NCBI GenBank assembly: GCA_016196065.1
Contig: JACPYL010000010.1
Location: 1,178,001-1,242,000 of the forward strand
Direction: 5' to 3'
Origin: Acidobacteriota bacterium
Lineage (GTDB): Bacteria; Acidobacteriota; Terriglobia; Terriglobales; Acidobacteriaceae
Length of the DNA stretch: 64,000 bases
Numbering within the stretch: position 1 is the first letter of the stretch; each line of letters opens with the position of its first letter. The notes beneath the pieces were generated by a model that searched no databases, was not told where the DNA came from, and saw only the letters and a program-made list of their open reading frames with translations. Shown one piece after another: positions 44,009 through 64,000 of the stretch. The position numbers and the translations under genes are program-made.

Positions 44009-45184
44009 CTAGAGACGACTCCTCGTGCTCAGGTAAAAAGTTCGACCTCTTGTCTTCTCTTGCAATTTCAGGGAACCACGGTCGACCTCAATGGCAGCGA
44101 CTCCTTGGAAATCTTGTGGGACCTCAAACATGCAAATCCGATACTGAGATTTTGCTTTAGCTCGTGCAGGCAACCACTTGTATGTAGACTCACCGAATAG
44201 CGGTCCGTTTGTGACCGTCTCGCGTCGAGGGAAGGGAAAGGGAGTAGTGCTGAACTCAAATCCGCGGCAGAATTCGTGTCCTTTCCACGGCGCATGAACA
44301 CGATTGTAAGATTCCTCCCAATTGCCGACCCACGGATAGTCATTTCGATTGAACAGATATACGACCAGCAGCCCCATCTTTGGGTTGCACACGGCGATAA
44401 AACCGGTCTTGTGCGCTGGGTCCAGCAAATGCGCAGTGTAATGTCCGTATCGGCCCTCTTCACTGGTACGAAGGTTCAGGAAGCCTCCACCCTTCTTGGG
44501 AGCTTTAGGCCAGCGGAATTCAGCGTCTGGCTGCAGCGACATCTTGGTGCTGAATGTGGCGGGACAGACCTTGCTGCGTGTCGCGGGCATATCAAACAGA
44601 GTGATTTCCGGCTCCAGAAATGGCGGGCCGAAGGTCACGTGATGGTTCCAGGAGATGGGCCGGTCAAAGGTGCCAAGGTTGAAGGCGGTCTCTTCAACAT
44701 CGATAGTCGGTGATTCGCGATCAAGAGCAATTACACGCTGCAGACGCATTTGGGCCTTCGGAAGATCGGCCACGTAAAGTAGGCTCCCGGCAGGCGATCC
44801 GCGAGTAAGTTTTCGATGCCATGTCACTACGGGAGCTTCACCATGCGTGGTATGTCCGGCTGCGATTTCGTCCGGGGACGGCGGTCCGAAATAATCGAAG
44901 CTGATGCTGTGACCCGCGATCCCGGCGAGCAGTTTGCCTTCAGGCGGGGGGCCGTAAGTGCGGAGGTGCTTGCGCGGCTTGTAACACTCCGGATCGATTG
45001 TTTTCCAGGTAGGCCGCCACATTGGATTGACATCACCAGCACTGTGCAAGATCAATTCGCAGATGTGGCCCCCACCTTCAAGAACTGAGACATAGCCCCA
45101 CTTGCCGTGAATACGGAAGCCAGGCCGGCCATCCAGGATGTTCGAATGATGAACAACGGACTGTGTGCGCTTGTGACTAGGCAA
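44009..45184 (-). CDS. Aldose 1-epimerase-like (galactose mutarotase fold) protein
   Basis: 391 aa with a TTG start at 45184 and GAGGAAG upstream. No signal peptide. The beta-sandwich character and motifs FRIHGKWGYVSVLEGGGHI, GEAPVVTWHRK, ISWNHHVTFGPPFLEPEI and GLLVVYLFNRNDYPW resemble the galactose-mutarotase-like superfamily (DUF4432/aldose epimerase-like). It may interconvert sugar anomers or bind a sugar. It lies 124 nt downstream of the MFS gene on the same strand, so it is probably the last gene of the sucrose phosphorylase operon. Family-level call only. Confidence 0.6.
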   Translation of the reverse strand: MPSHKRTQSVVHHSNILDGRPGFRIHGKWGYVSVLEGGGHICELILHSAGDVNPMWRPTWKTIDPECYKPRKHLRTYGPPPEGKLLAGIAGHSISFDYFGPPSPDEIAAGHTTHGEAPVVTWHRKLTRGSPAGSLLYVADLPKAQMRLQRVIALDRESPTIDVEETAFNLGTFDRPISWNHHVTFGPPFLEPEITLFDMPATRSKVCPATFSTKMSLQPDAEFRWPKAPKKGGGFLNLRTSEEGRYGHYTAHLLDPAHKTGFIAVCNPKMGLLVVYLFNRNDYPWVGNWEESYNRVHAPWKGHEFCRGFEFSTTPFPFPRRETVTNGPLFGESTYKWLPARAKAKSQYRICMFEVPQDFQGVAAIEVDRGSLKLQEKTRGRTFYLSTRSRL

Positions 45185-45308
45185 TTCGGCACTTCCTCAG
45201 AAGTGGTGTGACGGCTTTATAGCAGGCCAATGCCACTTCTGAAAAGGCCGCCGAGCTTCAAGGAGGGGTTCGAGTCGGGCGACTATCACTGAGACTGCGC
45301 GTTATGTC

Positions 45309-46544
45309 CTAAGCGCGAACTGCCTGGTATTCCGTGGCATCGAGTTTCTGTAGAAGTGACCGCGCGGGATTGAAAATCCAATTGAGCAACAGTCCAACGA
45401 AGAGGACAGCCGCAAAAGCAGTGGCGAGTATAAATCCGTATTTCGGATCGCCAAAGGTGTCGCTGATCGCACCCATTGCAAGTGGTCCCAACACTGCCGA
45501 CAGACAAGTGAAGAACAGAATCACGCCCGCCACCGCGCCGTGTTCTGACTTGCGGAAACAGCTTATGCCTTTGGAGTTGATGGTGGGATAAAGAACAGAC
45601 ATGAACAAACCGGACAAGGGCAATAGGAATACGGCGATGCCAATTCCGCCAACTGTGCTCACCACGAAACAGACAAATATGGCCAGGCTGAACACGGTTA
45701 CAACCGCAGCCCAGTTCAACCTCGCGAGCATCCATGAGCCAATAAATCTTCCCGCTGCGCGAAGAACAAAGAAGATTGAGATCGCGTAAGCCGCCATCCA
45801 GGCCGCCGGGCCGTGGTAACCGCCGAGTAGTGTCGGCATCCATACATAAATTGCGCTTTCCACCGCCACATACAGGAATATCGCTGCCGAAAATCCGAGA
45901 GCGTACGGGTTCTTCATCATCAGCACGGTCCGCCGCAGGTCAACGCCTTCTGTGCTTGTTGTGGTTTGCGGGTAGCGGACCAACGAACTGATCACAATCA
46001 GGAGCACGCAAATGCTGCCCGCGATCACGTACAGCCACTTCCACGAAATACCAACCGCGAGAAAGTGGGTCACAATCGCGGGGCCGATGATAGCCCCAAC
46101 GGCAAAGAAGCCCTCCACCGCATTCATGGTTGCGGTGTGCTGTGTCGTGGATGTGCTGATATCGCCAATAAGGGCAAGTGCCCCGGTCTTGAAAATGCCG
46201 ATTGCCGCGCCCGAAATCGTGAGCAGGACGATGAAGAAAACGAAAGACCTGCCAATGGCGAACAGGTAAGAGTTCAGCGCAAAAAGAACCAAACCTAAAA
46301 TAATTGTTCTCTTTCGTCCCAGCTTGTCAGCCAAATAACCAAGGAAGAAAGCCGCGACCGCGATCCCTGACATCGCAGCATAGTGGAACGCGCCTGCAAC
46401 GGTCATGCTCAGGTGAAACTCTTTAATGACCTCAGGAATAATGACGCCGACGGAATCCGTCGTCATTGCAAACATCATAAACATCAGGAATGTGAGCCAT
46501 TTGATTGCGGACAAATTCTGTACTGTACTGGGGTTATCCTTCAT
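45309..46544 (-). CDS. MFS transporter
   Basis: 411 aa from the ATG at 46544, with AAGGTGAT upstream; a longer frame to 46586 is rejected. Twelve membrane segments are visible, and the loop 2-3 motif LGYLADKLGRKRTI is the MFS signature A. The start codon overlaps the stop of the sucrose phosphorylase gene (ATGA at 46541-46544), which means translational coupling and a shared job: most likely import of sucrose or a sucrose derivative across the inner membrane. The exact substrate is inferred from context. Confidence 0.85.
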   Translation of the reverse strand: MKDNPSTVQNLSAIKWLTFLMFMMFAMTTDSVGVIIPEVIKEFHLSMTVAGAFHYAAMSGIAVAAFFLGYLADKLGRKRTIILGLVLFALNSYLFAIGRSFVFFIVLLTISGAAIGIFKTGALALIGDISTSTTQHTATMNAVEGFFAVGAIIGPAIVTHFLAVGISWKWLYVIAGSICVLLIVISSLVRYPQTTTSTEGVDLRRTVLMMKNPYALGFSAAIFLYVAVESAIYVWMPTLLGGYHGPAAWMAAYAISIFFVLRAAGRFIGSWMLARLNWAAVVTVFSLAIFVCFVVSTVGGIGIAVFLLPLSGLFMSVLYPTINSKGISCFRKSEHGAVAGVILFFTCLSAVLGPLAMGAISDTFGDPKYGFILATAFAAVLFVGLLLNWIFNPARSLLQKLDATEYQAVRA

Positions 46545-48046
46545 TGCATCACCTTCGTAGGGCTGACGTTTTCCCGTGATTCCCAATGTCCGCTCTGCTG
46601 GTCACCTTCACGGCTCTCTCGAGAGTAGGTCACCACCGCGTGCGCCTTTGCGAAATCCACGTCCAGCTTTGTCCAGTGTCGATCGTTCGTCCATGTGATT
46701 ATCAGGTCTTGATCGGATGGAGTCTCAATGTTTGCTGCTCCGGCAAAAGAAGGATGGCTGTTGCGCAAGCGAATGAGCTCAATCAGCTTTCGCACCGTAG
46801 GCGATTGCAGCGATTCTTCGAGTTCTGTCGAGTTGTAATAGTGGCGATTGATGTCGCGGCCGACTTGAGTTCGGGCAAGGAGTTCCATGTCGTTAGTGCC
46901 GGCGAGAAGTCCGACGTAATAGACCTGCGGAATCCCGGGGACAAAAAATTGCACGGCTCGGGCGATGAGATACTCGTTCCCGCTCTGCCCTAACGCGTCG
47001 TAGAAAGTGCAATTCACTTGATACAGGTCGAGGTTATTTGCCGCCGCACCGGTGGCTTTCCGACTCTGGTCTTTGCTCCGGGAATGGATGGTCTCAACGA
47101 GGCTGTCGATCTCTGCCGGTTCGAGGAGGCCCGGCTCGCCGGATGCGCCGGCGCCGACGTCGATGACTCCAATGCCGTCGTGAGTGTCGAGCACGGTAAT
47201 GCAGTTTTTCGGGCGGACGCTGAGCCAATGTCCCAGCGCCTTGCACTCGCGCGCGAACAGCGAATGCAGGATGAGCGGAGGAAGTGCGAAGTCATAAATC
47301 CAATCCACTTGTCGTGCGATTTCAAGTTGTTGAGAATAGTGACTATGGATTTCCACCAGGACTTCCATCCCAAGGTCGTGAGCCTGAGAGGCAAGCGTTG
47401 CAATGAAGCCAAACGTCTCCGGGATCATGAAACAACTTGTTCCCGCCTTCTTGATTGCATAGCCTACAGCGTCCAGCCGAATCATGCGTATGCCAGCAGC
47501 CTGAAAGGTGCGGAGGATCGTCTGCAGATATACTTCGCCCTGCGGGTGTTGCACATCGATGTCGACCTGTTGAGGAGTAAATGTAGTCCACAAGAGTCGG
47601 CGCTCTCCTGAGTCCAGCAGGGCATTGGTGAAGGGAAGCCCGGGGCGCGGGCGATAAATGCGCAGCAATTCTTCTTCGCGGGCACCCGTCGGGAACACCC
47701 GATCGTAGGTAAGAAACATGCCTGCAAACGGAGAACTCAAGCCTTTACGCGAGAAGTCTTGGAATTGCGGCGAGGCCGTCGACACGTGATTGACGATGAG
47801 GTCCGCCATCACCTCGGCCTCTTCGCTCAATGTGCGCACATCCTTCCAATCGCCTAGCCGTGCATCCACTTGGGTGTGATCCACGGGGTCGAATCCAGCG
47901 TCTGTACCGTCGATCGGGTGAAAAAAAGGAAGAAGATGCACTCCACCGAAAAGTCCGCGGAATCGACCTTGCAACAGGGATTGCAACCGTTTCAGGTCGC
48001 CACAGAGTCGATCAACGTACGTGATAAGTTGAACTTGATTCTTCAC
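46541..48046 (-). CDS. Sucrose phosphorylase-like GH13 enzyme (GH13_18)
   Basis: 501 aa from the GTG at 48046 (KNQVQLITYVDRL, the canonical family N-terminus); a longer frame to 48109 is rejected. The catalytic residues fall at D192 (RLDAVGYAIKKAG), E232 (VLVEIHSHY) and D290 (LDTHDGIGVID), the same numbers as in the Bifidobacterium enzyme. No signal peptide, so cytoplasmic. It converts sucrose and phosphate to glucose 1-phosphate and fructose; related GH13_18 members use sucrose 6'-phosphate or glucosylglycerate, which cannot be excluded. Overlaps the MFS gene by four bases. Confidence 0.88.
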   Translation of the reverse strand: MKNQVQLITYVDRLCGDLKRLQSLLQGRFRGLFGGVHLLPFFHPIDGTDAGFDPVDHTQVDARLGDWKDVRTLSEEAEVMADLIVNHVSTASPQFQDFSRKGLSSPFAGMFLTYDRVFPTGAREEELLRIYRPRPGLPFTNALLDSGERRLLWTTFTPQQVDIDVQHPQGEVYLQTILRTFQAAGIRMIRLDAVGYAIKKAGTSCFMIPETFGFIATLASQAHDLGMEVLVEIHSHYSQQLEIARQVDWIYDFALPPLILHSLFARECKALGHWLSVRPKNCITVLDTHDGIGVIDVGAGASGEPGLLEPAEIDSLVETIHSRSKDQSRKATGAAANNLDLYQVNCTFYDALGQSGNEYLIARAVQFFVPGIPQVYYVGLLAGTNDMELLARTQVGRDINRHYYNSTELEESLQSPTVRKLIELIRLRNSHPSFAGAANIETPSDQDLIITWTNDRHWTKLDVDFAKAHAVVTYSRESREGDQQSGHWESRENVSPTKVMQ

Positions 48047-48165
48047 GATCGCGCCATTCTGGCCTTCGAGACGCACGGGGCAAGGAGAACCGAGCTTCGC
48101 GCAACCCACAATAGTTAAGGCGCCGCGACTTCACCGTCAAGCATTTTGCCGGTCTATAGCGTCAA

Positions 48166-48182
48166 AGTTGTATATGGTAACT
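48166..48182. promoter_or_regulatory. Imperfect palindrome in the regulator/phosphorylase divergent region
   Basis: AGTTGTATATGGTAACT reads AGTT-N9-AACT and resembles AraR/GntR operators. It lies between the divergent sucrose phosphorylase and regulator genes and shares AGTTGT with the sites before the receptor gene. Nothing else is evident in 48047-48265. Confidence 0.4.
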
Positions 48183-48265
48183 CAGCTTGTCGCAGGAGTA
48201 AGATGTCGTGTTCAGGAGCCGGTCGTTCGGGTCGCAGACAGCTCGCTGAACACCGGGAGACCACG

Positions 48266-49372
48266 ATGGCGCATCACAAATACCGCCAGATCCTCGAAAA
48301 ACTTCAGGAAGATATTGCGGCAGGCCGGTACAAGTCGGGCAAACGTTTGCCAAGCGAAGCGGAATTGGTGAGGCGTTTCGGTGCTTCCCGCATGACTGTT
48401 TTTCGTGCCATGCACGAATTGCAGCTGTTGGGACTGGTCACTCGGCGTGTGGGGTCCGGTACGTTCGTCTCTTCCAATGCAAAGGGAGGTAGCCACGTCT
48501 TTGGCCTGCTGATTCCCGAACTTGGGCAGACCGAAATCTTTGAGGCAATCTGCAAAGGCATGATGGAAGCGCAAGAGGCCATGCATCACGCTTTGCTGTG
48601 GGGTAATGCATCGCCTCAGGAACACGAAAAAGAGCAGGCCGCAGAGCAACTCTGCGAACACTACATTTCGCGCAAGGTTTCCGGAGTATTCTTCGCTCCG
48701 GTGGAGTTCAGTACAAACAGGTTTCAGGCAAACCACAGGATCGTTGCGGCTTTTGATCGAGCTCGGATTCCGGTTGTACTCCTTGATCGCTGTCTGGAGC
48801 CATATCCGCAACGCAGCAAGTACGACCTCGTGGGGATTGATAACCGGCGCACAGCCTTCCTGGCCACGGACCACCTGCTCAAGGCCGGGGCGAAACGCAT
48901 CATGTTTTTCGCCCGCCCGAATTCGGCGCCGACCGTGGATGCTCGCATTGCGGGCTATCGGGAGGCTCTGCTGTTGCAGGGGGGGAAGCCCGCTCGCGAT
49001 CTGGTCCGGACCGGAGATGCTTCTGATCCGAAGTTCATTAAGTCCCTGCTGAAAAAAGATCGGCCGGATGCCTTCGTGTGCGCCAATGACCTTACAGCCG
49101 GAAATCTCATGCATACGTTGCTATCTCTCGGCCAGCGCATTCCTGACGACATTCGCATCGTCGGGATTGACGATGTGAAATATGCGCGGCTGCTTCCGGT
49201 GCCGCTCACAACCATGCACCAGCCTTGCCGTGACATCGGAAGGATCGCGGTAGCGGTCATGCTCGACAGAATTGCGAATCCTGATCTGCCGCCGCGAGAT
49301 GTGCTCCTCCGCTGCGAACTGATCGTGCGCAAATCGTGCGGCATGCAGGTACAGAAAAGTAGTCGGCACTAG
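48266..49372 (+). CDS. GntR/AraR-type regulator with sugar-binding domain
   Basis: 368 aa from the ATG at 48266 with GGGAG upstream; a longer frame from 48146 is rejected. The N-terminus is a GntR winged helix (LQEDIAAGRYKSGKRLPSEA ... LVTRRVGSGTFV), the rest a LacI-type periplasmic-binding-protein-like domain (VFGLLIPELGQTEIFEAICK, FVCANDLTAGNLMHTLLSLG, IRIVGIDDVKYARL), the architecture of AraR. It probably senses a sugar and controls both the divergent phosphorylase operon and the receptor-esterase operon to its right. Confidence 0.9.
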   Translation: MAHHKYRQILEKLQEDIAAGRYKSGKRLPSEAELVRRFGASRMTVFRAMHELQLLGLVTRRVGSGTFVSSNAKGGSHVFGLLIPELGQTEIFEAICKGMMEAQEAMHHALLWGNASPQEHEKEQAAEQLCEHYISRKVSGVFFAPVEFSTNRFQANHRIVAAFDRARIPVVLLDRCLEPYPQRSKYDLVGIDNRRTAFLATDHLLKAGAKRIMFFARPNSAPTVDARIAGYREALLLQGGKPARDLVRTGDASDPKFIKSLLKKDRPDAFVCANDLTAGNLMHTLLSLGQRIPDDIRIVGIDDVKYARLLPVPLTTMHQPCRDIGRIAVAVMLDRIANPDLPPRDVLLRCELIVRKSCGMQVQKSSRH

Positions 49373-49497
49373 CGGATATTAGTTAGTTGTACGGCGCGAC
49401 GCGAAGCCCACCCAAACTTCCGCCAGTTACCCCGTCAGTCTCTCTCCATGGATACGTGGAATACCATTTCTGGAAGTGTGTTCTCTCGCGATGGTAT

Positions 49498-49520
49498 AGA
49501 CAACTTCTTTATAGTTGTCT
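49498..49520. promoter_or_regulatory. Operator-like inverted repeat AGACAACT-N7-AGTTGTCT
   Basis: A perfect 8-bp inverted repeat (49498-49505 and 49513-49520). A third half-site GACAACT (49533-49539) follows in the same array and overlaps the TTGACA box. The adjacent GntR/AraR-type regulator is the likely binder. Confidence 0.55.
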
Positions 49521-49530
49521 GCAATTTGCC

Positions 49531-49559
49531 TTGACAACTCAAGACGCCAAAGCTTCTAG
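49531..49559 (+). promoter_or_regulatory. Candidate promoter of the receptor-esterase operon
   Basis: TTGACA (49531-49536) is followed after exactly 17 nt by TTCTAG (49554-49559), a weak -10. The -35 box overlaps the third GACAACT half-site, as expected for repression by steric blocking. Confidence 0.4.
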
Positions 49560-49697: not shown

Positions 49698-52600
49698 ATG
49701 CGTAAGACTCTGACCGCTGTCCCTGCCGCTTTCTCGAAGTTTTCCAACTGCTCCTTTCATTTCGCAAAGACCTTCATGTCCAGAGTCGCAGGTTTCTCGA
49801 CTCCGCGATCCGTTGCTGTGCGGCTGATGAGTGTTCTGGTTCTCGCTGGAGTCGTGGGATCATGTCTGCCGGCCAATGCCCAGGTCAGGTTCGGCGGCGT
49901 AGTCGGAAGTGTTTCCGACCCCACCGGTGCAACCATCTCAGGCGCGAAGGTGACCCTCACCAATGTCGGCACGAACGAGAATCGATCGATGCCGACCAGT
50001 AGTGCCGGCACCTACGCCTTTGCCAACGTCAGTGCGGGTTTGTACCGGGTCGAGGTTGAGCAAGCTGGCTTCAAGCGTTTTGCCCAGCAAAACGTCGAGG
50101 TTCAGGTGGACGTCACTACGCGTGTGGACGCCACCTTGCAGGTCGGCAATGTGACCGAGAGTGTGGTCGTGACCACCGAGGCGCCGCCGTTGCAGACGGA
50201 CAGCGCGTCCTTGGGTACAACCGTCGGACTGCGAGAAGTGGAGAGCATTCCTCTCAGTGGACGAAACGTAAACAACATGCTGACGCTGGTGCCAGGTGTC
50301 GTCGCCCAAGGTGGCACGTACGGCAACGCAGTCTCCAATCAGGCAGGTGGCGCTAGAACCAATGCCATCGGTTTCGGAAACTACGCGATCGGTGGCGGCT
50401 TCGGTAACCAGAGCTCGTTCTACATCGATGGCGTCGCGTCCAACGCGCCAGCCGGCAATTTGAATTCCCTGATTCCCAGCCAGGATGTCGTGCAAGAGTT
50501 CCGCGTCGTGACGAACAATGTTGCGGCCGAGTATGGCAGCTACGCGGGAGGAATCATTAACCTCACGACGAAGTCGGGAACCAACAAGTTCCATGGGACG
50601 GCATACGAGTACCTGCGGAACAAAGTCTTGAACGCGAACGACTACTTCAACAACCACAATGGTCCGGGTGGAACCGCGCTTGCTCGTCCTCCACTCAGGC
50701 AGAATCAGTTTGGTGGTACGATCGGCGGGCCGATACTGAAGGACAAGACATTCTTCTTCTTCGGGTTCGAGCGTCAAGTGCTGAAGACCGGAACGCCCGT
50801 TACCAATACAGTGCCTACAACCGACATGTTGGCGGGTGACTTCTCGGACCCCGCTCTCCCTGCTATTTATGACCACAGCCAGGATGGAAGCCCGCAATTC
50901 GAATGTGATGGAGTATTAAACGTAATCTGCCCAGACAGGCTGGATTCGTCCGCTCTGGCTCTGTTTGCGAAATCTTACCCTGCTCCCAACCGGCCCGGTG
51001 TATCGAACAACTTCATTACGAATATGGCCACTGGAGGAATCAACGCTCAATACAACGCCCGTGTTGACCATCATTTCTCCGACAAGAACACTCTGTTTGC
51101 GCGTTACACCTATTGGAAGGCAGATAGTGACGCCTATGATGCTTGGGGAACCCACACGTCGGGCCAGGGTCACACGGGTGTCTACACTCATTCGGCTGTC
51201 CTCGGGGACACTCACGCCATCAACTCCTCGACGATTCTGGATTTGCGGCTTTCTTTTCTGCGGGTTTTCCAACATGAGTTCCCCGACAGTGAGGGCGTTG
51301 ACCTCTCCCAATTCGGTCCCGGCTGGGCAAGTCTGACCAGCCAGCTGCTGGCACCAGCGAACTATCCCGCAATGGCCTTCAACGATAACTCTGGAACCAC
51401 GGGCAGCAATGGCATTGGTTCGCAGCTGTTTTGGACCCAGAACGTAATCGGATTGTCGGGGACTCTCACTAAGATTATCGGCCGCCATCAGCTCAAGTTT
51501 GGCGGTGCCGGTCGCCATGTGCAGTGGATTTCTGCCCCGCAAAACGGGGTACTTTCGCTGAACTTTGATCAGAACGCTACTGCGGACTCCGAGGGCGCGG
51601 GTGGCTCCGCTGTGGCCTCCTCACTGCTTGGCATTCTTGGGGGACAAGGCTCACAGGTAGCGTCTGGAATGGTGGGCGGCTCCCGAGCCTACTTCACGTC
51701 TTACGGTTTCTTCATCGACGATACCTTCCAGGCGACCAGAAAACTCACCATCACAGCCGGTCTGCGCTGGGATCAGCCCAGCGTCTTCTCGGAAGCCAGT
51801 AATAATGACACCGTGTTCCTGCCCAACCAAGCCAGTCCGATCGGAACTATCGATAATCCGGTCACCGGCCAGACGCAACAAGTGATGGGGAATGTGGCTC
51901 TGGTGAACAGTCCGGCCTGGAAATCACAACGAGAAGACAATCTGCACTGGAAGCTGTTTTCGCCGCGCCTCGGATTCGCTTACCGGCTCACCGACAAAAC
52001 GGTATTGCGCGGGGCGTATGGGATCTCCTATCCGCCCGCTACGCTTAGCCAGGATGGACCCAATCTCTCGCCCATCAATGCAGCCCAGGGTGCCGGCAAT
52101 GCGTTCTCCACAGTAGCCAACCCGTTTCCCGATGGTCTCCCGCAGCCAAAGCGGCGGAACGCGACGCCGGACGACTTCTATGGACTGCCCGTCTTTGCCA
52201 TGCGCGTGCCGGGCGACCCCATGCCATATGTGCAGCAGTGGAACGCAGCATTCGAACGGCAGGTCGGCAAGGATTCCTCCATTACGGTGGCCTACGCTGG
52301 TTCGAAGGGTACCCACCTCCTTCTGCAGGGGTGGGCAACCGTATCGAATATCAATCTTAACCAGCTACCCGATCAGTATTTTTCTATGGGGCCGACGGCT
52401 TTAGAGGCACAGGTGCCAAATCCGTTCGCTGGCATCATTACGAGTGGCCCGTTCTCGGGACCCACGATTGCCACAGGCCAGTTGTTGCTGCCGTTCCCAC
52501 AATACCGGCGAGTTCTATTCCTGGATCCTCACCGCGGTAGATCCAACTACAATTCGCTACAGACCTCCTACAAGAAGCGCTTTGGCGACAAGGGCATTCT

Positions 52601-55472: not shown

Positions 55473-56363
55473 GTGAACCAGACAACTTTGTCGCGTCGGC
55501 GTTTCTGTCAGCTGGCTAGCAGCAGCCTACTCCTCGGGCCATCACTGATGCGCGGCCAAGCGTCCCCGATGCCACTGACAGCTCGTGAGGTCGTCGACCG
55601 AATCCGAAAGAATGTCGGAGTGCCGTGGAGGACTCCCACCGCGGACGAATTCAAAATCGGCGACCCGGATGCGCCGATCACAGGAATTACCACAACCTTC
55701 ATGTCAACGCTGGATCTGCTGGAGCGGTCGGCAGCGGCGGGAAACAATTTCGTGATCACGCACGAACCCACATTCTGGAGCGCCGCCGATGTGGTCTCCG
55801 ATCTGAGGGACGATTCACTTTATCGGCAAAAGGTGAATTTCATCGAGAAGCACAAGATGGTGGTATGGCGGTTCCACGATCACTGGCACGCCCGGCGACC
55901 GAGCGATGGCATCTTTGCCGGATGGAATCGATCGATGGGGTGGGAAGACTACCACGTCAAAAGCGACAACCCATTCTCGATTCAGTATTTGATCCCGGAG
56001 ACCAGTTTTGAAGAGTTAGCGCGGGACATGCAAAAAAAGTTGAAGCTCCGCAGTATGCGCCTGGTCGGTGATCCAAAGCTGCGCGTCACTCGTGTTGGCA
56101 ACGGAGGTCATTACATTCTCCAGTGCATGCCCCAGTTGCCAAAGGTCGATGTTCTTCTCGTGTTCGAAGGGAGGGAATGGGAAGCCCCGGAATACATCCG
56201 CGATGCGATCGCCGCCGGCGAGAAGAAAGCGCTCATCCAGCTCCCGCATGAGGGAGGAGAGGAAGCGGGCATGGACGAGTGCGCTCGCTGGCTGCAGGCT
56301 TTTGTCAGTGAGGTGCCAATCAAGTTCATTCCATCCGGTGATCCGTTCTGGATACCGGTATAG
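55473..56363 (+). CDS. NIF3-like protein with Tat-type signal
   Basis: 296 aa from the GTG at 55473, which follows AGAAGGGA; a longer frame from 55407 overlaps the previous gene. The leader (TTLSRRRFCQLASSSLLLG) has the twin-arginine motif, unusual for a NIF3 homologue, which are normally cytosolic. The domain shows GITTTFMSTLDLLERSAAAG and FVITHEPTFW, a His-Glu pair where NIF3 proteins usually have His-His. C-terminal GREWEAPEYIRDA gives further possible ligands. Starts 11 nt after its paralogue, within the operon. Confidence 0.75.
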   Translation: MNQTTLSRRRFCQLASSSLLLGPSLMRGQASPMPLTAREVVDRIRKNVGVPWRTPTADEFKIGDPDAPITGITTTFMSTLDLLERSAAAGNNFVITHEPTFWSAADVVSDLRDDSLYRQKVNFIEKHKMVVWRFHDHWHARRPSDGIFAGWNRSMGWEDYHVKSDNPFSIQYLIPETSFEELARDMQKKLKLRSMRLVGDPKLRVTRVGNGGHYILQCMPQLPKVDVLLVFEGREWEAPEYIRDAIAAGEKKALIQLPHEGGEEAGMDECARWLQAFVSEVPIKFIPSGDPFWIPV

Positions 56364-56400
56364 AGAGGATCGAACGACTGTGAAACGTGGAGAAAACGTG

Positions 56401-57696
56401 GTGAAAGCACGACTCATGATGATTGTCCTCATGCTGGCTGGGCTGCTGGTTAGCTCAGTTGCTGGCGCGCAAACGCCTCCCTCTCATGATGGATACTGGG
56501 TCAGCGCCTGGAGCACTGCGATTCACGCGCCACTCGCATTCCCAGGATTACCGCCAACGCCGGTGTTCGAGAATCAAACACTCCGGATGGTGGTGAAACC
56601 CACAATCGGCGGGGGGCGCCTGCGGGTTCGATTGTCGAATGCATTCGGAAATGCGGCGCTAACGATTGGCGCTGCGCACGTGGCTCTTGTGCAACAGGGG
56701 GCGAAAATCGTGCCCGAGTCTGATCGGGCGCTGACCTTCGGGGGCAGGGCCTCTGTCACCATTCCTCCGGGAGCACCGGTGTTGAGTGACCCGGTTGATC
56801 TGAAGGTTGCTGCCTTGACAGAGATCGCGGTAAGCATCTATCTGCCCGCCAGCGCTACTGGTTCCAGCACCCACTTTTGGGCACAACATGAAACCTATGT
56901 ATCTGGTCCCGGTGACTTAACGGCGCAAGCCGAAATGCCGAACCGGGTGACACAGATGGCGTGGTACTGGCTCGCCGACGTCGAAGTCTGGACCTCCGAT
57001 CAAGCCACTGCTGTTGTGACCTTGGGAGATTCGATCACAGACGGAGTCGGAGCCAAGCAAGGGGAGTACGAGGATTGGCCAGATAGATTGGCTCTGCGGC
57101 TGCAATTTGAAAAAAAATCCGCCAAGCTGTCTGTCGTCAACGTTGGCATCGGGGGAAACCGAATTCTGCATGAGGGCGCTGGAATCAGCGCCCTCGCACG
57201 TTTCGATCGCGACGTTCTGGCGCAACCTGGAGTTTCGGCCGTGATCGTGCTCGAGGGAATCAACGACATCGGCTGGCCACATATGAAACCACGGCTGCCG
57301 AATGGCGAGACGCTGAAGGACCCGCCATTCGTCCACGAACTGGTGAGCGCCGAAGACCTGATCGTCGGACTCAAGCAGATTATCGACCGCGCTCATCAGC
57401 ATGGAATCCGTGTCTTTGGCGCGACGCTTACGCCCTACGAGGGCGCCGACTACTACAGCGAAGACGGAGAGGCCACGCGTCAAGCGGTCAATCATTGGAT
57501 TCTCACCAGTCGCGCATTTGATGGTGTCTTCGACTTCGACGCAGCCGTTCGTGATCCGAACCATCCATCGCAATTTCGCGAAGGCTATCACTCGGGAGAC
57601 CACCTTCATCCCAGCGCGATTGGCTACAAGGCGATGGCCGACGCTGTGGACCTCGCCCGGTTGAGAGGGGCCGAAAAGTCGAAAGCGAAGAAGTGA
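56401..57696 (+). CDS. Exported SGNH/GDSL hydrolase
   Basis: 431 aa from the GTG at 56401 with GGAG eight nt upstream; a GTG at 56380 is an alternative and the long frame from 56068 is rejected. Signal peptide (MMIVLMLAGLLVSSVAGAQ). After an N-terminal beta-rich domain, the SGNH blocks are VVTLGDSITDG (Ser about 211), NVGIGGNRIL, VLEGINDIG and the C-terminal DHLHPSAIGY with catalytic Asp and His. Likely a carbohydrate esterase acting on acyl or acetyl sugar esters in the periplasm. Confidence 0.88.
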   Translation: MKARLMMIVLMLAGLLVSSVAGAQTPPSHDGYWVSAWSTAIHAPLAFPGLPPTPVFENQTLRMVVKPTIGGGRLRVRLSNAFGNAALTIGAAHVALVQQGAKIVPESDRALTFGGRASVTIPPGAPVLSDPVDLKVAALTEIAVSIYLPASATGSSTHFWAQHETYVSGPGDLTAQAEMPNRVTQMAWYWLADVEVWTSDQATAVVTLGDSITDGVGAKQGEYEDWPDRLALRLQFEKKSAKLSVVNVGIGGNRILHEGAGISALARFDRDVLAQPGVSAVIVLEGINDIGWPHMKPRLPNGETLKDPPFVHELVSAEDLIVGLKQIIDRAHQHGIRVFGATLTPYEGADYYSEDGEATRQAVNHWILTSRAFDGVFDFDAAVRDPNHPSQFREGYHSGDHLHPSAIGYKAMADAVDLARLRGAEKSKAKK

Positions 57697-57717
57697 CGGT
57701 TGGGCTGGACTTGCACT

Positions 57718-58896
57718 ATGACAACATTCGGAAAGATCATCGTCGTACTGGCTCTCACGGTTGCGGCATGCTGGGGACAAACCGCCCCATCCCATCCCGC
57801 CTCAACCAATATCCCCGGTGCGGACTTTCCGCGGATCAACGCCGATTCCAGCGTTACCTTCCGAGTTCAAGGGGAACAGGCGCAGAAACTTCAGGTGTCA
57901 TTGGGTTTCGGCCAGTCCGTGTATGACATGGTGAAGGGACCGGACGGGGTTTGGGAGGCGACCACCAAGCCGCTGGCGCCTGGCTTTTACTACTATGGGA
58001 TTTCGATCGATGGTTTCATCGCCAACGATCCCGGGAGTCGGACGTTTTTTGCCGCACGCAAGGAAGTAAGCGGGCTTGAGGTCCCGGGCGATGAATCAGA
58101 GTTCTTTGCGGTGAAAGATGTTCCGCATGGCAACGTACGAATCGAATGGTACTTCTCTAAAACGACAGGCGAAACCAGAAGAATTTTCGTCTACACGCCG
58201 CCGGGATACGACGGGAGCGCCGCGCGCTATCCAGTGTTATACCTCCAACACGGTTACGGGGAAGACGAAGCCGGTTGGAGCGACCAGGGTCATGAGAATT
58301 TCATTCTTGACAACCTGATCGCGGCCGGCAAAGCCAGGCCGATGATCATTGTCAACGAGGACGGACTGACAGGCGTGAATTTTCAACCGCCCCCTCCGCC
58401 TCGACCGGGGACAAATCCTCCTCCGCCACCGCGTGGCGTGGTGCGTTTCTTCATGGAGGAACGATACGCAACCCTGGACCAGATCATTTCCCGAGACCTG
58501 ATCCCGTTCATCGATTCACGCTTCCGCACCATTCCCGACCGCGATCACCGGGCGCTTGCGGGACTTTCCATGGGGGGTGCGCAGGCATTGCGCATCGGGT
58601 TCAACCATCTCGACCAGTTTGCATTTCTCGGCGCCTTTAGTCCCGCCATCGCCATCACCGACACGGACAAAGACTATGACGGAATTATGGCGGATCCCGC
58701 AAAGCTAAACCGGCAATTGCGTCTCTTGTGGCTCGGAATCGGCAACGAGGATTTTCTACACGCGCCGGTCAAGGAATCTCACGAGGCTCTGGAGAAGGCT
58801 GGGATTAAACACGTCTGGGTCGCGAGTTCCGGTGCGCATGTCTGGACAGTATGGCGCAAGTATCTCGCCGATTTTGCGCCCCGGCTCTTTCAATAA
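57718..58896 (+). CDS. Exported CE1-type esterase with N-terminal CBM48-like domain
   Basis: 392 aa from the ATG at 57718; a TTG at 57700 is an alternative. A signal peptide (IIVVLALTVAACWGQ) precedes an E-set/CBM48-like domain (about 40-135) and the esterase D/feruloyl-esterase-like domain: YPVLYLQHGYGEDEAGW, catalytic Ser about 284 in LAGLSMGGAQA and His about 374 in SSGAHVWTVW. An unusual Pro-rich loop (QPPPPPRPGTNPPPPPRG) is inserted near the active site. The closest functions are hydroxycinnamoyl/feruloyl and acetyl-xylan esterases, fitting removal of acyl groups from sugars. Confidence 0.85.
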   Translation: MTTFGKIIVVLALTVAACWGQTAPSHPASTNIPGADFPRINADSSVTFRVQGEQAQKLQVSLGFGQSVYDMVKGPDGVWEATTKPLAPGFYYYGISIDGFIANDPGSRTFFAARKEVSGLEVPGDESEFFAVKDVPHGNVRIEWYFSKTTGETRRIFVYTPPGYDGSAARYPVLYLQHGYGEDEAGWSDQGHENFILDNLIAAGKARPMIIVNEDGLTGVNFQPPPPPRPGTNPPPPPRGVVRFFMEERYATLDQIISRDLIPFIDSRFRTIPDRDHRALAGLSMGGAQALRIGFNHLDQFAFLGAFSPAIAITDTDKDYDGIMADPAKLNRQLRLLWLGIGNEDFLHAPVKESHEALEKAGIKHVWVASSGAHVWTVWRKYLADFAPRLFQ

Positions 58897-58908
58897 GCAG
58901 CAGGCGCG

Positions 58909-59835
58909 ATGTTGGATAAGGCCATGAATAAACCGGCAGTGATGATTGGGGTGGGCGAAGTTTTGTGGGACATTTTACCGACAGGAAGAGTGTTGGGTGG
59001 CGCACCCGCGAATTTTGCTTACATGACCAACGTACTTGGAGACCAGGGAATCGTGGCCAGCCGAGTGGGCAGCGACGATCTGGGCCGTGAAGCCTGCACG
59101 GTCATGCAACAACTGGGCCTGACCATAGACTACGTTCAGCAGGATGAAAGTAACGCAACCGGGACCGCGGTGGTAAGTATCGGTCCGGGTGGCCAGCCCA
59201 CGTTCCTGATCAAGGAGTGTGTCGCTTGGGACTCGCTGCAATGGTCACCGGACTGGGAAGAATTATCCGCCCGGGCCGACGTGGTCTGTTTTGGTTCGCT
59301 CGCTCAGCGTTTTCCGATGTCGGCTTCTACCATCGAGCGCTTTCTCAAAAACGTCCCCAAGACCGGTCTGCGCATATGCGACGCAAATCTCCGCCAGTCC
59401 TACTACAGTACCGAAGTTCTCCGCCGGTCGTTCCAGCATGCCGACATCGTGAAACTCAACGAAGAAGAAGTGGGAAGGGTCGCGTCTTTGTTAGGGCTGG
59501 GCAATGGAGGCGAGCAGGCACTTGCCGAACGGCTTCTGGCGGAATTCGACCTGCGGTTGGTTTGCATTACGCGAGCAGACCGCGGAAGCGTGCTGGTTTC
59601 GGACGCCGAGACCGTTGAGCATGCGGGTTTCCGCGTGAAAGTGGAGGATGCTATTGGCGCGGGAGACGCCTTCACTGCCTGCCTGGCGCACCATTACTGG
59701 AGAGGGCGTTCCCTGAAGGAGACGAGTGAGGCCGCGAACCGTTTTGCGGCATGGGTGGCAACCCAGCGGGGCGCGACTCCGCCCATCAGTCCAGAGCAAT
59801 TGCAGAACATTCTTGCCGGGCCTGCCCTCCACTAG
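58909..59835 (+). CDS. PfkB-family carbohydrate kinase, likely fructokinase
   Basis: 308 aa; the ATG at 58909 or 58924 could be the start. PfkB signatures: GGAPANFAYMTNVLGDQG near the N-terminus, NEEEVGRVASLLG and the C-terminal anion hole with catalytic Asp in EDAIGAGDAFTACL (Asp about 253). Similar to bacterial fructokinases. In this locus it would phosphorylate the fructose released by sucrose phosphorylase. It is the only clearly cytoplasmic enzyme among the exported hydrolases around it. Confidence 0.88.
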   Translation: MLDKAMNKPAVMIGVGEVLWDILPTGRVLGGAPANFAYMTNVLGDQGIVASRVGSDDLGREACTVMQQLGLTIDYVQQDESNATGTAVVSIGPGGQPTFLIKECVAWDSLQWSPDWEELSARADVVCFGSLAQRFPMSASTIERFLKNVPKTGLRICDANLRQSYYSTEVLRRSFQHADIVKLNEEEVGRVASLLGLGNGGEQALAERLLAEFDLRLVCITRADRGSVLVSDAETVEHAGFRVKVEDAIGAGDAFTACLAHHYWRGRSLKETSEAANRFAAWVATQRGATPPISPEQLQNILAGPALH

Positions 59836-59889
59836 AGATTGCAGGGGGGATCGCAGACATGCCCGCGCCAACAGATGATAGGGGGCGTC

Positions 59890-61407
59890 GTGAAGACTTT
59901 CTGGGCAGTTTTGTCGACTGTTCTGATGATGGCAACCTGCTATTCGCAGATCAAGCAGTCGCTTCGCACAGAGAGCGGTCTGGTCAGCGGCGTACCGGGC
60001 AGAGATCCCAGTATCACAGCTTTCAAAGGTATTCCATATGCGGAGCCTCCGGTGAGGAACTTGCGCTGGGTTGAGCCACGCCCTCCTCGCCAGTGGGAGG
60101 GAGTCCGCAAAGCCGATCATTTCAGCGACGGTTGCATCCAGAACTTTCCCAAAGGCGATTTTCCGAAGAGTGAAGACTGCCTCTATCTGAACGTGTGGAC
60201 TCCGGCGAAGGACAAGGCCGCGCTGCCCGTGATGGTTTATATCCACGGAGGCGGTCTGCGCGTAGGCTCCGCGCGCGAGGCCCTGTACGACGGCGAAGAA
60301 CTGGCCAAAAAGGGGATTGTCGTCGTCACTCTGAACTACCGTCTGGGCATTCTCGGGTTCTTCGCTCATCCGGAATTGACCAAGGAATCTCCCTACCACA
60401 CCTCCGGAAACTATGGGCTGCTCGATCAAAATGCCGCGCTGCAGTGGGTGCATCGCAATATCGCTGCGTTTGGCGGTGATCCCAACAAGGTCACGATCTT
60501 CGGACAGTCCGGAGGCGCGTTCTCGGTGACTTCTCAGGTGGTGAGTCCGCTGTCGAAGGGCCTGTTCCGCGCAGCGATCGTCGAAAGCGGCGGAGTTGGG
60601 GCAGGATTCGCTAGGACTGAACTGCTGTCTTTGGAGGATGGAGAAAAAGCCGGAGTCAAGTTTGCGGACTCTGTCGGCGCCCACTCCCTGGCAGACTTGC
60701 GGGCAATGCCGGCCGAAAAGATGTTGTCCGACGGCTCGGCGGAATCGAACGTGGATGGGCGGTTTTTTCCGGCCAGCCCGGTCACCTTGTTGAACGAGGG
60801 CAAGCAGAACAAAGTCGCCATGATCGTGGGCTCGAACTCCGATGAGGGGCAGCACCTTTTCCGTTCGCCAGTGCCGGCCGGCGAATATGCCGAGCAGGCA
60901 CGCAAGATGTACGGCGCAGACGCGGACAAATTCCTGAGCTTGTATCCCAACGATTCCGAGGAGGCTTCCAAGGCCTCTCAGCAACGCATGTTTGCGGATC
61001 GCATGGCTCTAGGGGAGCAAAACCTCGCAGCATCGATGACCAGCATCGGGTCAAATGTCTATCTTTACTATTTCGACTATCTGGACGAGGGAGGCTACAA
61101 CAGCGAGCCCCCCACTCTCGGCCTGCGCCTCGGAGCGGACCACGGTGCGGAACTTCCTTATGTGTTCGGCCTGATGAGCCACTGGAGAGCTTCCGTCCCC
61201 GATCAGGATCTCAAACTGCAAAACATTGTCATGCAGTATTGGACGAATTTCGCTAAGGACGTGGATCCGAATGGCAAAGGCCTGCCCGCCTGGGAAGTGT
61301 TCAAGGGACTTCATAGTCCCATCATGATTGTGGACAAGAATCCCAGCATGAGGCCGCATCCCCGCGCGGGGCAGGTGGAGTTCCTTCGCACGCACGGAGT
61401 GAAATAG
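59890..61407 (+). CDS. Exported type-B carboxylesterase
   Basis: 505 aa from a GTG at 59890, a choice based on GGGGG and the GTGAAG pattern seen in neighbours; ATG 59875 and TTG 59839 are alternatives. Signal peptide (FWAVLSTVLMMATCYSQ). Type-B fold: GIPYAEPPVRNLRWVEP, YIHGGGLRVGSAREAL, the nucleophile in FGQSGGAFSV (Ser about 207; the usual GESAGG is GQSGG here), Glu in GSNSDEGQHLF and His in DHGAELPYVFG. Hydrolyses carboxyl esters in the periplasm. Confidence 0.88.
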   Translation: MKTFWAVLSTVLMMATCYSQIKQSLRTESGLVSGVPGRDPSITAFKGIPYAEPPVRNLRWVEPRPPRQWEGVRKADHFSDGCIQNFPKGDFPKSEDCLYLNVWTPAKDKAALPVMVYIHGGGLRVGSAREALYDGEELAKKGIVVVTLNYRLGILGFFAHPELTKESPYHTSGNYGLLDQNAALQWVHRNIAAFGGDPNKVTIFGQSGGAFSVTSQVVSPLSKGLFRAAIVESGGVGAGFARTELLSLEDGEKAGVKFADSVGAHSLADLRAMPAEKMLSDGSAESNVDGRFFPASPVTLLNEGKQNKVAMIVGSNSDEGQHLFRSPVPAGEYAEQARKMYGADADKFLSLYPNDSEEASKASQQRMFADRMALGEQNLAASMTSIGSNVYLYYFDYLDEGGYNSEPPTLGLRLGADHGAELPYVFGLMSHWRASVPDQDLKLQNIVMQYWTNFAKDVDPNGKGLPAWEVFKGLHSPIMIVDKNPSMRPHPRAGQVEFLRTHGVK

Positions 61408-61446
61408 TCCAGCACATCAACCTTTTGGAAACGATGGAGGCTTTGC

Positions 61447-62382
61447 ATGCGCCGAATCATGATTCTGGTGATCGCCCTGTTGTTCAGCTCCACGCTCTTG
61501 GGCCAAGCTCCCCCCAAAATGCGGACGCGCATTCTGACTCACATGACCAACACGGAGATCGAGCAGTATCTCAAACGCAACGACGTGATCTTCGTAACCG
61601 TGGGAACGGTTGAGCCACACGCGGAGATGCCGATCGATGCCGAGTATGTTGGCCCGCTCGCGTACTCCATGAAACTTGCGGAGGAGGGAGACGGCCTGGT
61701 CCTGCCAGGGCTGGCCTATTTCTTTCCCGATGCAACGGTGGTTGGAAGAGGTGCTGTGCACGTGACCCCGTCGGAAGGCACTGCTTATCTGCTGACGATT
61801 GCGCGTTCACTTCTGCGGCAGGGGTTTCACAGACAGGTTTATATCACCGGCCATGCGCCATCCTGGCAGACCGTGAGCCCGCTGGTGAGGCAGTTTTATG
61901 ACGAGACTCACGTCCCCATTCTTTATCTGGAGTCGGCGATGTTTCACCGCCCAAGGAGCGATACCAAACCGCCGGATTTTGCAGATTTCGCCAAGATGAC
62001 TTATGGCGCTTACGCCATTGCCGGCAGGCTGGAGGACATTCCGGTCAATTTGTCTGAGCCGGTGCCGGAACATCCCGCCGATCCGGGCATTAACAATCTA
62101 TTTCCCGTCGGGCCGCAAAGCGGGGCCATCGGCTTCTATATGAGCCACTACACCGACCATATCGGCCCTGCCAAGGCCGTTACGGCCGAACAACGCGCCC
62201 AGTGGGGCAAGGAAGGCGCGGAGATGATCGATGAATCCGTGAAGAGTATCGACATCAAGAGCATCCTCGGGGCTTTGCGAGATCATGACAAATTTACCCA
62301 GGAGCACATCCTTCCCCAATATGGCTGGATGTTTCCGAATCAAGCGGGAGGGGAGAAATCCAATGACATTCATCAACACTAG
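61447..62382 (+). CDS. Exported creatininase-family protein, copy 1
   Basis: 311 aa. Signal peptide (MILVIALLFSSTLLGQ), unusual for this mostly cytosolic family. The metal motif GTVEPHAEMPIDAEY keeps Glu, His and a following Asp (spacing three residues shorter than in creatininase), and YITGHAPSW keeps the His of the NGHGGN-type motif but not the rest. Creatininase-fold amidohydrolases open cyclic or formyl amides; what this one cleaves is unknown. Overlaps the next gene by 20 nt. Confidence 0.75.
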   Translation: MRRIMILVIALLFSSTLLGQAPPKMRTRILTHMTNTEIEQYLKRNDVIFVTVGTVEPHAEMPIDAEYVGPLAYSMKLAEEGDGLVLPGLAYFFPDATVVGRGAVHVTPSEGTAYLLTIARSLLRQGFHRQVYITGHAPSWQTVSPLVRQFYDETHVPILYLESAMFHRPRSDTKPPDFADFAKMTYGAYAIAGRLEDIPVNLSEPVPEHPADPGINNLFPVGPQSGAIGFYMSHYTDHIGPAKAVTAEQRAQWGKEGAEMIDESVKSIDIKSILGALRDHDKFTQEHILPQYGWMFPNQAGGEKSNDIHQH

Positions 62383-63325
62383 GGCGTGGATTGTATCGGG
62401 GCTTCTCTGGCTAAGTCTTGCTGGAGCAGTGAACGCACAGACGGCTGCGCCTCTGGCCCCACCGCCAATTACACCTCCCTTCCTGGCCCCGGAGCCGGTG
62501 CCTCCACCGCCGGTGCGGACCCATTACTTTACGAGCTTGAGCAACGTCGAAGTGGAGAAATACCTCCAGTACAACGATCTCATTTTCGTTCCGATTGGAA
62601 ATATCCAGGCGCATGGCGTGTTGCCGGTTGACTGTGAGTACGTCGCCGCCGAGGCACTCGCCCTGAAACTGGCCGAAGAAACTAATGCCCTGGTGTTTCC
62701 CAATCTGCAATTCACCTATCCCGGAGATGGAATGATTGGGCGCGGAACGGTGCAGGTCAGCTCCACCCAGGCCATCGCCTATCTGAAGCCCATTGCGCGT
62801 TCTCTACTGAGGCAAGGCTTCAAGCGCCAGATATACATCACAGTCGGGAATGCGGCGGGACCGGAAACCGTCAGCCCCTTGGCACTCGAGTTCTTCTACG
62901 AGACGCGAACACCCGCGCTTTACCTCGAAGGAGACATTTTGCTTCAGAAGGTGAAGGCGGACATGAACAAAGTTTTCTTTGGGGCGTACTCCATCGTGGG
63001 CCGGCTCGATGATATTCCGTTGAATCTAAGGCCCGAGATTCCGAACCACGCCATCGATCAGGGACTCCGCACGCTTCAAGCGCTCAGGGTGAGTGGCGGC
63101 GCCCGAAATGGCACCGTGGGGTTCTTCGGGTTTGAGGACGAATCCGGCGCGCCCGTGCAAGCGGTCACGGCCGAGCAAAGAGCCGCCTGGGCAAAAGAAG
63201 GCTCGGACACGATCGACGCCGCGGTCAAGATGGCAGACATAAATAGGATCGCGCAATCCCTGCGGGACCACGACCGGTTTACGCGTGAGTACCTGATCCC
63301 GAAGTTCAACGATCTGCTGCCTTGA
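62363..63325 (+). CDS. Exported creatininase-family protein, copy 2, with changed ligands
   Basis: 320 aa from the ATG at 62363 after GGGAGGGGAG; the longer frame from 62285 is rejected. Signal peptide ([16 protein letters not shown]) then a Pro-rich linker and a creatininase-family domain clearly paralogous to copy 1 ([33 protein letters not shown]). The first metal motif reads [12 protein letters not shown], Gln replacing the metal Glu, and the second [12 protein letters not shown] lacks His. It may be inactive or use another chemistry, perhaps as partner of copy 1. Confidence 0.75.
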
Positions 63326-63387
63326 TCCGCGGCGGCCCGATATACGGCGGTAGCGTACCTGGCAACAAGGAGAAGGAGAGCGAGAAG

Positions 63388-64000
63388 ATGATTTCTTCGC
63401 AGTGTAGGGTTGCAGTCGGGCTATTGGGTCTGACTCTATTGGGCTTGGTCGGGAGTGCCGCTTTTGCTGAAACCGTCAAGGTGGAAGGCGGCCTGCTCCA
63501 GGGAACTGTCGAGGACGGGCTCCGCGTTTATCGCGGAATTCCTTTCGCTGCTCCACCGATCGGCAACCTTCGCTGGCGGCCGCCTCAACCTGCCTCGAAG
63601 TGGAATGGAGTTCGCGCCGCGGACGAGTTCGGCCGCGCGTGTATTCAGACAAATGCGGCAATCGCAGATCTGCCCGCCCCCAGCGAGGATTGTCTGTACC
63701 TGAACGTCTGGACGCCCGCCAAGAGCGCAGGGGAGAAGTTGCCAGTTCTGGTCTGGATTCATGGTGGAGGTTTCGTTGCAGGCGCGCCCGCAGAGAAGCT
63801 TTACCACGGCGAATGGTTGGCTCACAAGGGTGTCGTCGTAGTTTCCCTTGGGTATCGCCTGGGCGTGTTTGGTTTTTTGGCACACCCCGAACTGAGCGCC
63901 GAAAGTCCCCACCATGTATCGGGCAACTACGGCCTCCTCGACATGATCGCCGGATTGCAGTGGGTCGAAAGGAACATTTCCGCGTTCGGCGGCGATCCAA
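63388..64000 (+). CDS. Second exported type-B carboxylesterase (3' end outside window)
   Basis: The ATG at 63388 follows AAGGAGAAGGAG and opens a frame that runs off the right edge (204 codons seen). Signal peptide ([20 protein letters not shown]). Type-B carboxylesterase features: [60 protein letters not shown] and the start of the nucleophile elbow region (ISAFGGDP). It is a paralogue of the gene at 59890 and the tenth hydrolase-operon gene after the receptor. Confidence 0.88.

Follow-up and report, generated by a model that had tools for sequence, protein, structure and literature searches.

We describe here a gene cluster within a 64,000-nucleotide stretch (G000:C10:1178001-1242000, hereafter the window) of the 5.5 Mb genome of a soil or wetland acidobacterium. 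Judged from its sequence, the cluster is probably a regulon for the utilisation of acylated, possibly hydroxycinnamoyl-substituted, sucrose, in which deacylation would precede import or phosphorolysis of the sugar. It consists of two arms on either side of a GntR/LacI-type regulator, one with a sucrose phosphorylase (SP) and an MFS transporter, the other with a TonB-dependent-receptor-like protein, a series of ester hydrolases and a PfkB-family kinase (Table 1). Sucrose esters of the acyl and phenylpropanoid kinds occur widely in plants. The phenylpropanoid sucrose esters are called a large and important group in PMC11397724. The enzyme families of the cluster are known ones, and their combination was found nowhere described; a full-text literature search, limited to top-ranked matches and mostly without subscription journals, found no bacterial locus for acyl-sucrose or phenylpropanoid-sucrose utilisation.

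An earlier note on this DNA had proposed an acyl-sucrose system with a receptor, five exported esterases, a kinase, SP, a transporter and a regulator. All of these genes are present, the five esterases with signal-like starts, and the proposed coupling of SP and MFS is seen as an ATGA overlap of the SP stop and the MFS start. Five cluster genes had been overlooked, namely a pair of NIF3/DUF34 genes (NIF3a, NIF3b), a pair of creatininase-family genes (CRN1, CRN2) and a tannase/feruloyl-esterase-family gene (tannase) past the window end. Intergenic gaps run from -20 to 89 bp between the receptor and the second of two type-B carboxylesterases (COe1, COe2), and 138 bp precede the tannase. By a crude hydropathy count, hydrophobic signal-like N-termini occur in the Abhydrolase_3/HSL-like esterase (ABH3), the SGNH and CE1 esterases, COe1, COe2, CRN1, CRN2 and the tannase, and are missing from SP and NIF3a. 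The SusD family had no match among the scanned locus proteins, so the SusC/SusD pair of a Bacteroidota-type polysaccharide utilisation locus (PUL) is not found here. No xylan- or pectin-backbone hydrolase scored above cut-off among the scanned locus genes, the open reading frames (ORFs) of relatives being scanned in part.

The GH13_18 enzyme of the window is a predicted sucrose phosphorylase. Its scores are 541-570 bits with seven solved sucrose phosphorylases (7znp 570, 1r7a 547) and at most 370 bits with solved structures of sucrose 6'-phosphate phosphorylase (SPP) and glucosylglycerol phosphorylase; two more chains named sucrose phosphorylase also score low (7qqj 388 bits, 9j1u 358 bits). 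Loop A reads NLDLYQ in this protein and in 14 of 14 relatives, and the acid/base stretch of the window protein is VEIHS. PMC7178133 gives the loop-A signature of sucrose phosphorylases as N(L/V)D(I/L/V)YQ, that of SPP as GFDVHQ or KXXYYQ, that of glucosylglycerol phosphorylase as VGAIYQ, and that of glucosylglycerate phosphorylase as (T/S)ETN plus a loop-A Glu. Identity as SPP, glucosylglycerol phosphorylase or glucosylglycerate phosphorylase is ruled out by the loop, with its Gln, and by the bit scores. Since the loop is the same in all 15 genes, neither alternative specificity named by the earlier note, for glucosylglycerate or sucrose 6'-phosphate, fits.

The two arms appear to be linked by a shared operator. 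The regulator joins a GntR DNA-binding domain to a LacI-type sugar-binding domain, is assigned to the AraR type, and has orthologues of 76-85% identity in five relatives from a sample of 298 genomes of the same order, drawn from a larger group (the counts of SP, tannase, PfkB and CE1 given below are assumed to come from the same draw). In an intergenic comparison, AAGTTGTATATGGYAA-like sites lie 5' of the regulator/SP pair. An inverted pair, GTATAGACAACTT-N6-[AG]GTTGTCTGC, lies 5' of the receptor gene in five of six order-sample loci and in a further locus, L070, and is missing from G255; its expression, written after the sites were seen, had no match in 100 shuffled windows. When a matrix is trained on nothing but the SP-side sites of the other loci, the site on the receptor side comes 3rd in the 64 kb window and 2nd or 3rd in each of the five remaining loci (6/6). 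The second-best match of the matrix in G096 (26.9 bits, 0 in 100 shuffles) falls in the interval that separates the tannase from a divergent receptor (28% identity). In G050 its top match is 5' of the regulator, with a score unreached in 100 shuffles.

Genome-wide scans were carried out with two further patterns. Across the 5.5 Mb of the host genome, AAGTTGTMTATRSY is matched at two places only, one on the SP side and one on the receptor-esterase side of the locus; this pattern was written to fit both sites, so its information lies in there being no third match. AAGTTGTMTAKRSY has 13 of its 16 matches in nine regulator-holding relatives within the locus (taken as the SP-regulator interval for G184 and G219), a single match altogether in four same-genus genomes and none in G060, and its reversed control gave 9 matches in the 14 genomes. 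The SP arm and the receptor-esterase arm are probably co-regulated, and the regulator would bind the conserved operator-like sites.

The arrangement recurs in relatives. SP was found (E<=1e-60) in 15 of the 298 order genomes, the host included, and stretches of 5 to 20 kb were fetched round the 14 other genes. A syntenic block is present in six of the 15 (the host included), a rearranged one in G096, and none in the fetched stretches of the other eight. The earlier note had asked whether homologous loci always lack the esterases; they do not, as 7 of the 15 SP-positive genomes have SP together with an esterase-bearing locus. G252, G164, G236, G117 and G255 share the order MFS-SP / regulator / receptor-ABH3-NIF3a-NIF3b-SGNH-CE1-PfkB at ~58-90% protein identity, followed by variable tails: COe2 only (G252, G164, G117), COe1-tannase (G236), or COe1-CRN1-CRN2-COe2-GH32 (G255). 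The tannase of G255 lies behind SP-MFS in the SP operon, and that of G164 downstream on the SP strand, in a locus that also carries GH31. G096, with no NIF3 gene, has SP-MFS-GH32, the regulator, SGNH, the tannase and the divergent receptor, then a ceramidase-like gene, PfkB, COe2, CE1, SGNH, a BNR-repeat gene and another CE1. In a scan of named genomes, Acidobacteriaceae fen_335 (L070, NIF3b 94%) has its genes in the same order as the window as far as the tannase; L075, a short contig, carries NIF3b-SGNH-CE1-PfkB, and L071-L074 repeat four order-sample relatives. A DUF4432-like gene, whose product we take to be galactose-mutarotase-like, lies near MFS in four of six order-sample loci, with orthologues of 66-68% identity in L018, L019 and L021. 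Recent wholesale transfer as the sole cause of this synteny is unlikely, because the six loci span five genera (g1, g6 twice, g29, g56, g59), differ at the identities given and vary in tail order.

Loci in which no SP was detected extend the comparison. G050 carries the operator, regulator, receptor, ABH3, SGNH, CE1, PfkB and a D-psicose-epimerase-like gene. G060, not among the SP matches, carries a receptor, ABH3, a D-psicose-epimerase-like gene, SGNH genes, a ceramidase-like gene, a second ABH3, PfkB and a GH32 gene of the beta-fructosidase family, which has a twin-arginine (Tat-type) start and overlaps PfkB. The same-genus genome G293 has receptor-ABH3-SGNH-CE1 on a 5.3 kb contig. GH32 genes occur in the loci of G255, G117, G096 and G060, and in G184 GH32 stands with esterase-like genes, PfkB and a tannase ~36-51 kb from SP. 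Two unrelated families that cut the sucrose bond are found alongside the same esterases and kinase, and of all the observations this one most favours an acylated substrate with a fructosyl unit. The claim that the esterases belong to one system with sucrose cleavage is supported by the common operator-like site, the tannase behind SP-MFS in G255, and the esterases and PfkB with Tat-type GH32 in G060, where no SP was detected.

Tannase relatives (E<=1e-100) occur in 39 of the 298 genomes, 11 of 15 SP-positive vs 28 of 283 SP-negative (Fisher 4.6e-8, a test that ignores relatedness). At identity thresholds set after the tables were seen, tannases of at least 74% identity are found in 14 of 298 genomes, namely all seven with SP and the esterase set and seven without detected SP, and CE1 of at least 66% identity in nine, seven of them SP-positive plus G050 and G293. 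In G252 and G117 the close tannase is found on a separate contig, where a second CE1 lies nearby. PfkB gave 94 matches in 89 genomes, with the eleven best (57-100%) in nine SP-positive genomes, G050 and G060. As a background, 74 further loci round distant NIF3 relatives (1.17 Mb in total, for the most part from Acidobacteriota) were searched by tblastn, and none had a match (E<=1e-10) to ABH3, SGNH, CE1, COe1, COe2, the tannase or PfkB.

The relatives of the locus esterases suggest bulky or aromatic acids, and do not settle the substrate. ABH3 is closest among solved proteins to PMGL2 (230 bits; NF058650 356 bits, below the cut-off of 410), and SGNH to 7tog (275 bits), with a weak relative, 7tok (40 bits), named acetylxylan esterase. 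CE1 falls in both the CE1 and CBM48 sequence families, and its closest relatives are CBM48-CE1 enzymes: 7b5v at 323 bits (residues 33-397), 6mot at 273, 6ne9 at 260 and 6rzo, a ferulic acid esterase, at 258; it scores 237 bits against the NCBIfam xylanase/feruloyl esterase model, far below the cut-off of 1200. The tannase-family protein matches MHETase (300 bits) and fungal-type feruloyl esterase B (B-1, 131 bits), and COe2 is closest to a fumonisin B1 esterase (8s6d, 292 bits). From the tannase and CE1/CBM48 families, aromatic acyl groups seem somewhat likelier than aliphatic ones. The genome encodes a PcaHG-like pair, PcaB (667 bits, cut-off 595), PcaD (329, 256) and PobA (556, 539), and could therefore use 4-hydroxybenzoate-type products.

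In the proposed pathway, sucrose carrying p-coumaroyl, feruloyl, galloyl, or perhaps acetyl or aliphatic groups would cross the outer membrane by way of the receptor, or lose its acyl groups while still at the cell surface. Their removal would be the work of six exported ester hydrolases that differ in acyl and positional preference (HSL-like, SGNH, CE1/CBM48, two type-B and tannase-family). The MFS protein, whose closest solved chain is the L-fucose symporter at 53 bits only with drug exporters near behind, is proposed to be the inner-membrane carrier that would bring in bare sucrose, and SP would convert this to glucose 1-phosphate and fructose. PfkB would then phosphorylate fructose. The fructokinase named by the earlier note stands as a member of the PfkB family (PF00294) and falls short of the fructokinase equivalog (PRK09434, 84.6 bits, cut-off 450); with 2qhp, named 'fructokinase', as closest solved chain (197 bits), we propose that it works like a fructokinase only. 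Freed phenolic acids could feed the protocatechuate pathway, and the regulator, with a sugar as likely inducer, would control both arms through the AAGTTGTMTATRSY sites. Such a collection of esterases, each with its own preference, would be of use in sugar-ester chemistry.

Several observations weigh against an acylated-sucrose regulon. None of the 11 other genomes of the same genus in the sample gave an SP match, and in L070 the SP alignment is split into two segments that lie in different frames (L070:1179-2583), as if interrupted, which we read as a frameshift or assembly error. The fetched stretches round SP in G020, G031, G114, G184, G197, G219, G271 and G279 hold no esterase block (SP lies within ~2 kb of a contig end in G031, G271 and G279); MFS is near SP in seven of these eight genomes, G271 has a distant PfkB and regulator as well, and in G197 GH32 adjoins SP with no esterase of this set. 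G050, not among the 15 SP matches, showed neither SP nor GH32 within 30 kb; standing beside a D-psicose-epimerase-like gene, its set indicates that the sugar need not always be sucrose. The receptor-side operator site scores modestly alone (0.02-0.36 equal matches per shuffled sequence) and is outscored by a 16-mer inside a minus-strand ORF (28946-28961), which ranks 2nd in the window and does not match the genome-wide operator pattern; both genome-wide patterns were written after the sites were seen. PfkB lies under every equivalog cut-off among the models listed, and the pca and pob genes are sited elsewhere in the genome, with no link to the esterase locus seen. According to PMC8040265, the C-terminal module of DmCE1B (7b5v) showed no feruloyl-esterase and minimal acetyl-esterase activity.

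Other substrates were weighed against acylated sucrose. One is an acylated fructan, or larger acylated oligosaccharides based on sucrose, with the esterases exposing a chain that GH32 or SP would dismantle. It would suit the GH32 genes seen at the loci of G255, G117, G096 and G060, alongside SP in G197 and within the related cluster of G184, as well as the GH31 of G164 and a GH32 elsewhere in the host genome. We regard this as unlikely: no GH32 match was found in the window or 18 kb beyond, SP needs a terminal sucrose, and three locus GH32s and that of the host match only general scrB/BfrA models below cut-off, which do not tell invertase from fructanase. The esterases might instead be a general battery for plant litter, removing cell-wall acetyl and feruloyl groups under a sucrose-responsive regulator for which sucrose signals fresh plant material, with the esters not on sucrose at all. 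The origin of the closest solved CE1/CBM48 relative in a xylan PUL and the naming of 7tok favour it. This account becomes improbable given that no backbone-cleaving xylanase or pectinase family occurs among the scanned locus genes, that PfkB and the esterases remain together where SP was not found, and that the tannase lies within the SP operon in one genome.

It is also conceivable that an SP-MFS sucrose operon merely adjoins an unrelated receptor-esterase operon, as the eight of 15 SP genomes without an esterase block next to SP, and the esterase genes of G050 and G293 without detected SP, would allow. Operator-like sites common to both arms, the rearranged yet still linked set of G096, the tannase behind SP-MFS in G255 and the absence of these esterases from all 74 background loci (0/74) make such chance adjacency very unlikely, and the acylated-sucrose regulon is the reading we retain.

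The twin-arginine motif of NIF3b is present in 6 of 6 orthologues, and its His/Asp/Glu positions, the presumed metal ligands, are kept in alignment to 9g9u (158 bits). In an alignment of six, NIF3a has CREAP/CRQAP and Q/D at the presumed metal-ligand positions, which are apparently lost. In a phylum-wide search of 396 genomes, a different draw that omits five order-sample orthologues, NIF3b at E<=1e-90 occurred only in the host and one distant genome. Tandem NIF3/DUF34 pairs of a Tat-motif copy and a signal-less copy recur in other contexts (L153, L154, L157, L162 and probably L116). Gene maps of the 74 other NIF3 loci and 12 further stretches, their neighbours not systematically annotated, gave no lead to function, and a literature search on exported NIF3 returned nothing specific. 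An essential role of NIF3 in the system is unlikely, because the fetched stretches of G096, G050 and G293 carry esterases of the set without it. DUF34 function is unsettled, with a metal chaperone or insertase proposed (PMC8469502). The creatininase pair was found, among the compared loci, only in the window, L070 and G255; solved creatininases match CRN1 at 24 bits only, copy 1 has ITGHAP where copy 2 has VGNAAG, and the second copy may be inactive. The locus offers a metabolic setting in which the role of exported NIF3/DUF34 proteins becomes testable.

We put forward a wider proposal tentatively, as a possibility short of probable: this may be the first bacterial regulon dedicated to the catabolism of sucrose esters from plants, whether phenylpropanoid or acyl, in which exported esterases of several folds would remove the ester groups, SP inside the cell or Tat-exported GH32 outside would cut the sucrose bond, and the NIF3/DUF34 and creatininase-like pairs, each with one inactive-looking partner, would add a metal-dependent step, NIF3a perhaps being exported with its Tat partner.

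Known systems resemble parts of the locus. Bifidobacterial and lactic sucrose phosphorylase operons consist of SP, a transporter and a LacI/GntR regulator. The window likewise has an SP with NLDLYQ, an adjoining transporter and a sugar-type regulator, but adds an outer-membrane receptor, six esterases and PfkB, and its carrier is of the MFS type. Plant acylsugar acylhydrolases are carboxylesterases that strip acyl sugars, presumably of the same Pfam family as ABH3. They share with the locus the proposed chemistry, whereas the window enzymes are bacterial and stand with genes for uptake and phosphorolysis. Bacteroidota xylan PULs with CE1/CE6, such as Dysgonomonas mossii PUL 17 (PMC8040265), also have receptor-linked esterases, including CBM48-CE1, and an MFS gene; the window locus, in contrast, has no SusD or xylanase match, and its sugar step is sucrose phosphorolysis. 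The locus tannase belongs with MHETase, fungal feruloyl esterase B and tannase in PF07519 but, unlike MHETase and feruloyl esterase B, is placed in a proposed sucrose regulon.

Table 1. Features of the locus, in window coordinates unless stated otherwise
Feature	Position	Strand	Basis
DUF4432-like protein	44009..45184	-	PF14486 27.4 bits, below cut-off 32.5
MFS transporter	45309..46544	-	PF07690 142.8 bits
Predicted sucrose phosphorylase (SP, GH13_18)	46541..48046	-	TIGR03852 446.2 bits, cut-off 334.4
Operator-like site AAGTTGTATATGGTAA, between SP and regulator	48165..48180	+	
GntR/LacI-type regulator (AraR-like architecture)	48266..49372	+	PF00392 68 bits, PF13377 112 bits
Inverted operator-like pair GTATAGACAACTT-N6-AGTTGTCTGC, 5' of receptor gene	49494..49522	+	
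TonB-dependent-receptor-like outer-membrane protein, CarboxypepD_reg + barrel	49698..53345	+	PF25183 653 bits, PF13620 65 bits, PF00593 29.1 bits (cut-off 27)
ABH3, Abhydrolase_3/HSL-like esterase, signal-like start	53435..54532	+	PF07859 105 bits
NIF3a (NIF3/DUF34), no signal sequence	54599..55462	+	PF01784 41.6 bits, cut-off 23.4
NIF3b (NIF3/DUF34), twin-arginine motif, GTG start	55473..56363	+	PF01784 39.3 bits, cut-off 23.4
SGNH/GDSL esterase, signal-like start; gene start uncertain	56398..57696	+	PF13472 98 bits
CE1 esterase, CBM48-like N-domain, signal-like start	57718..58896	+	PF00756 79 bits
PfkB sugar kinase, proposed fructokinase	58924..59835	+	PF00294 125 bits, cut-off 25.8
COe1, type-B carboxylesterase 1, signal-like start	59890..61407	+	PF00135 384 bits
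CRN1, creatininase-family protein 1, signal-like start	61447..62382	+	PF02633 54 bits, over cut-off
CRN2, creatininase-family protein 2, signal-like start	62363..63325	+	PF02633 56 bits, over cut-off
COe2, type-B carboxylesterase 2, cut by window end (63388..64000 inside)	63388..64980	+	PF00135 394 bits
Tannase/feruloyl-esterase-family gene, 1.1 kb past window	G000:C10:1243119-1244660 (window-equivalent 65119-66660)		PF07519 357.7 bits, cut-off 29.8

A few further genes were observed in and around these loci. D-psicose 3-epimerase-like TIM-barrel genes, below model cut-off, are found at L172:15629-16513, L174:17141-17998 and L028:13669-14586; in G050 and G060 such genes adjoin the esterase/PfkB set, in G219 the MFS gene. 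Two variant loci encode neutral-ceramidase-family proteins (L067:9273-10679 and L174:13856-15253). Beyond the window, a large melibiase/GH31-like protein (L002:6720-9332) follows the tannase and an SDR gene, and upstream of the locus, at 35163-42535, lie planctomycete-type cytochrome (PSCyt1/PSCyt2/PSD1), DUF1501 and NHL-like genes.

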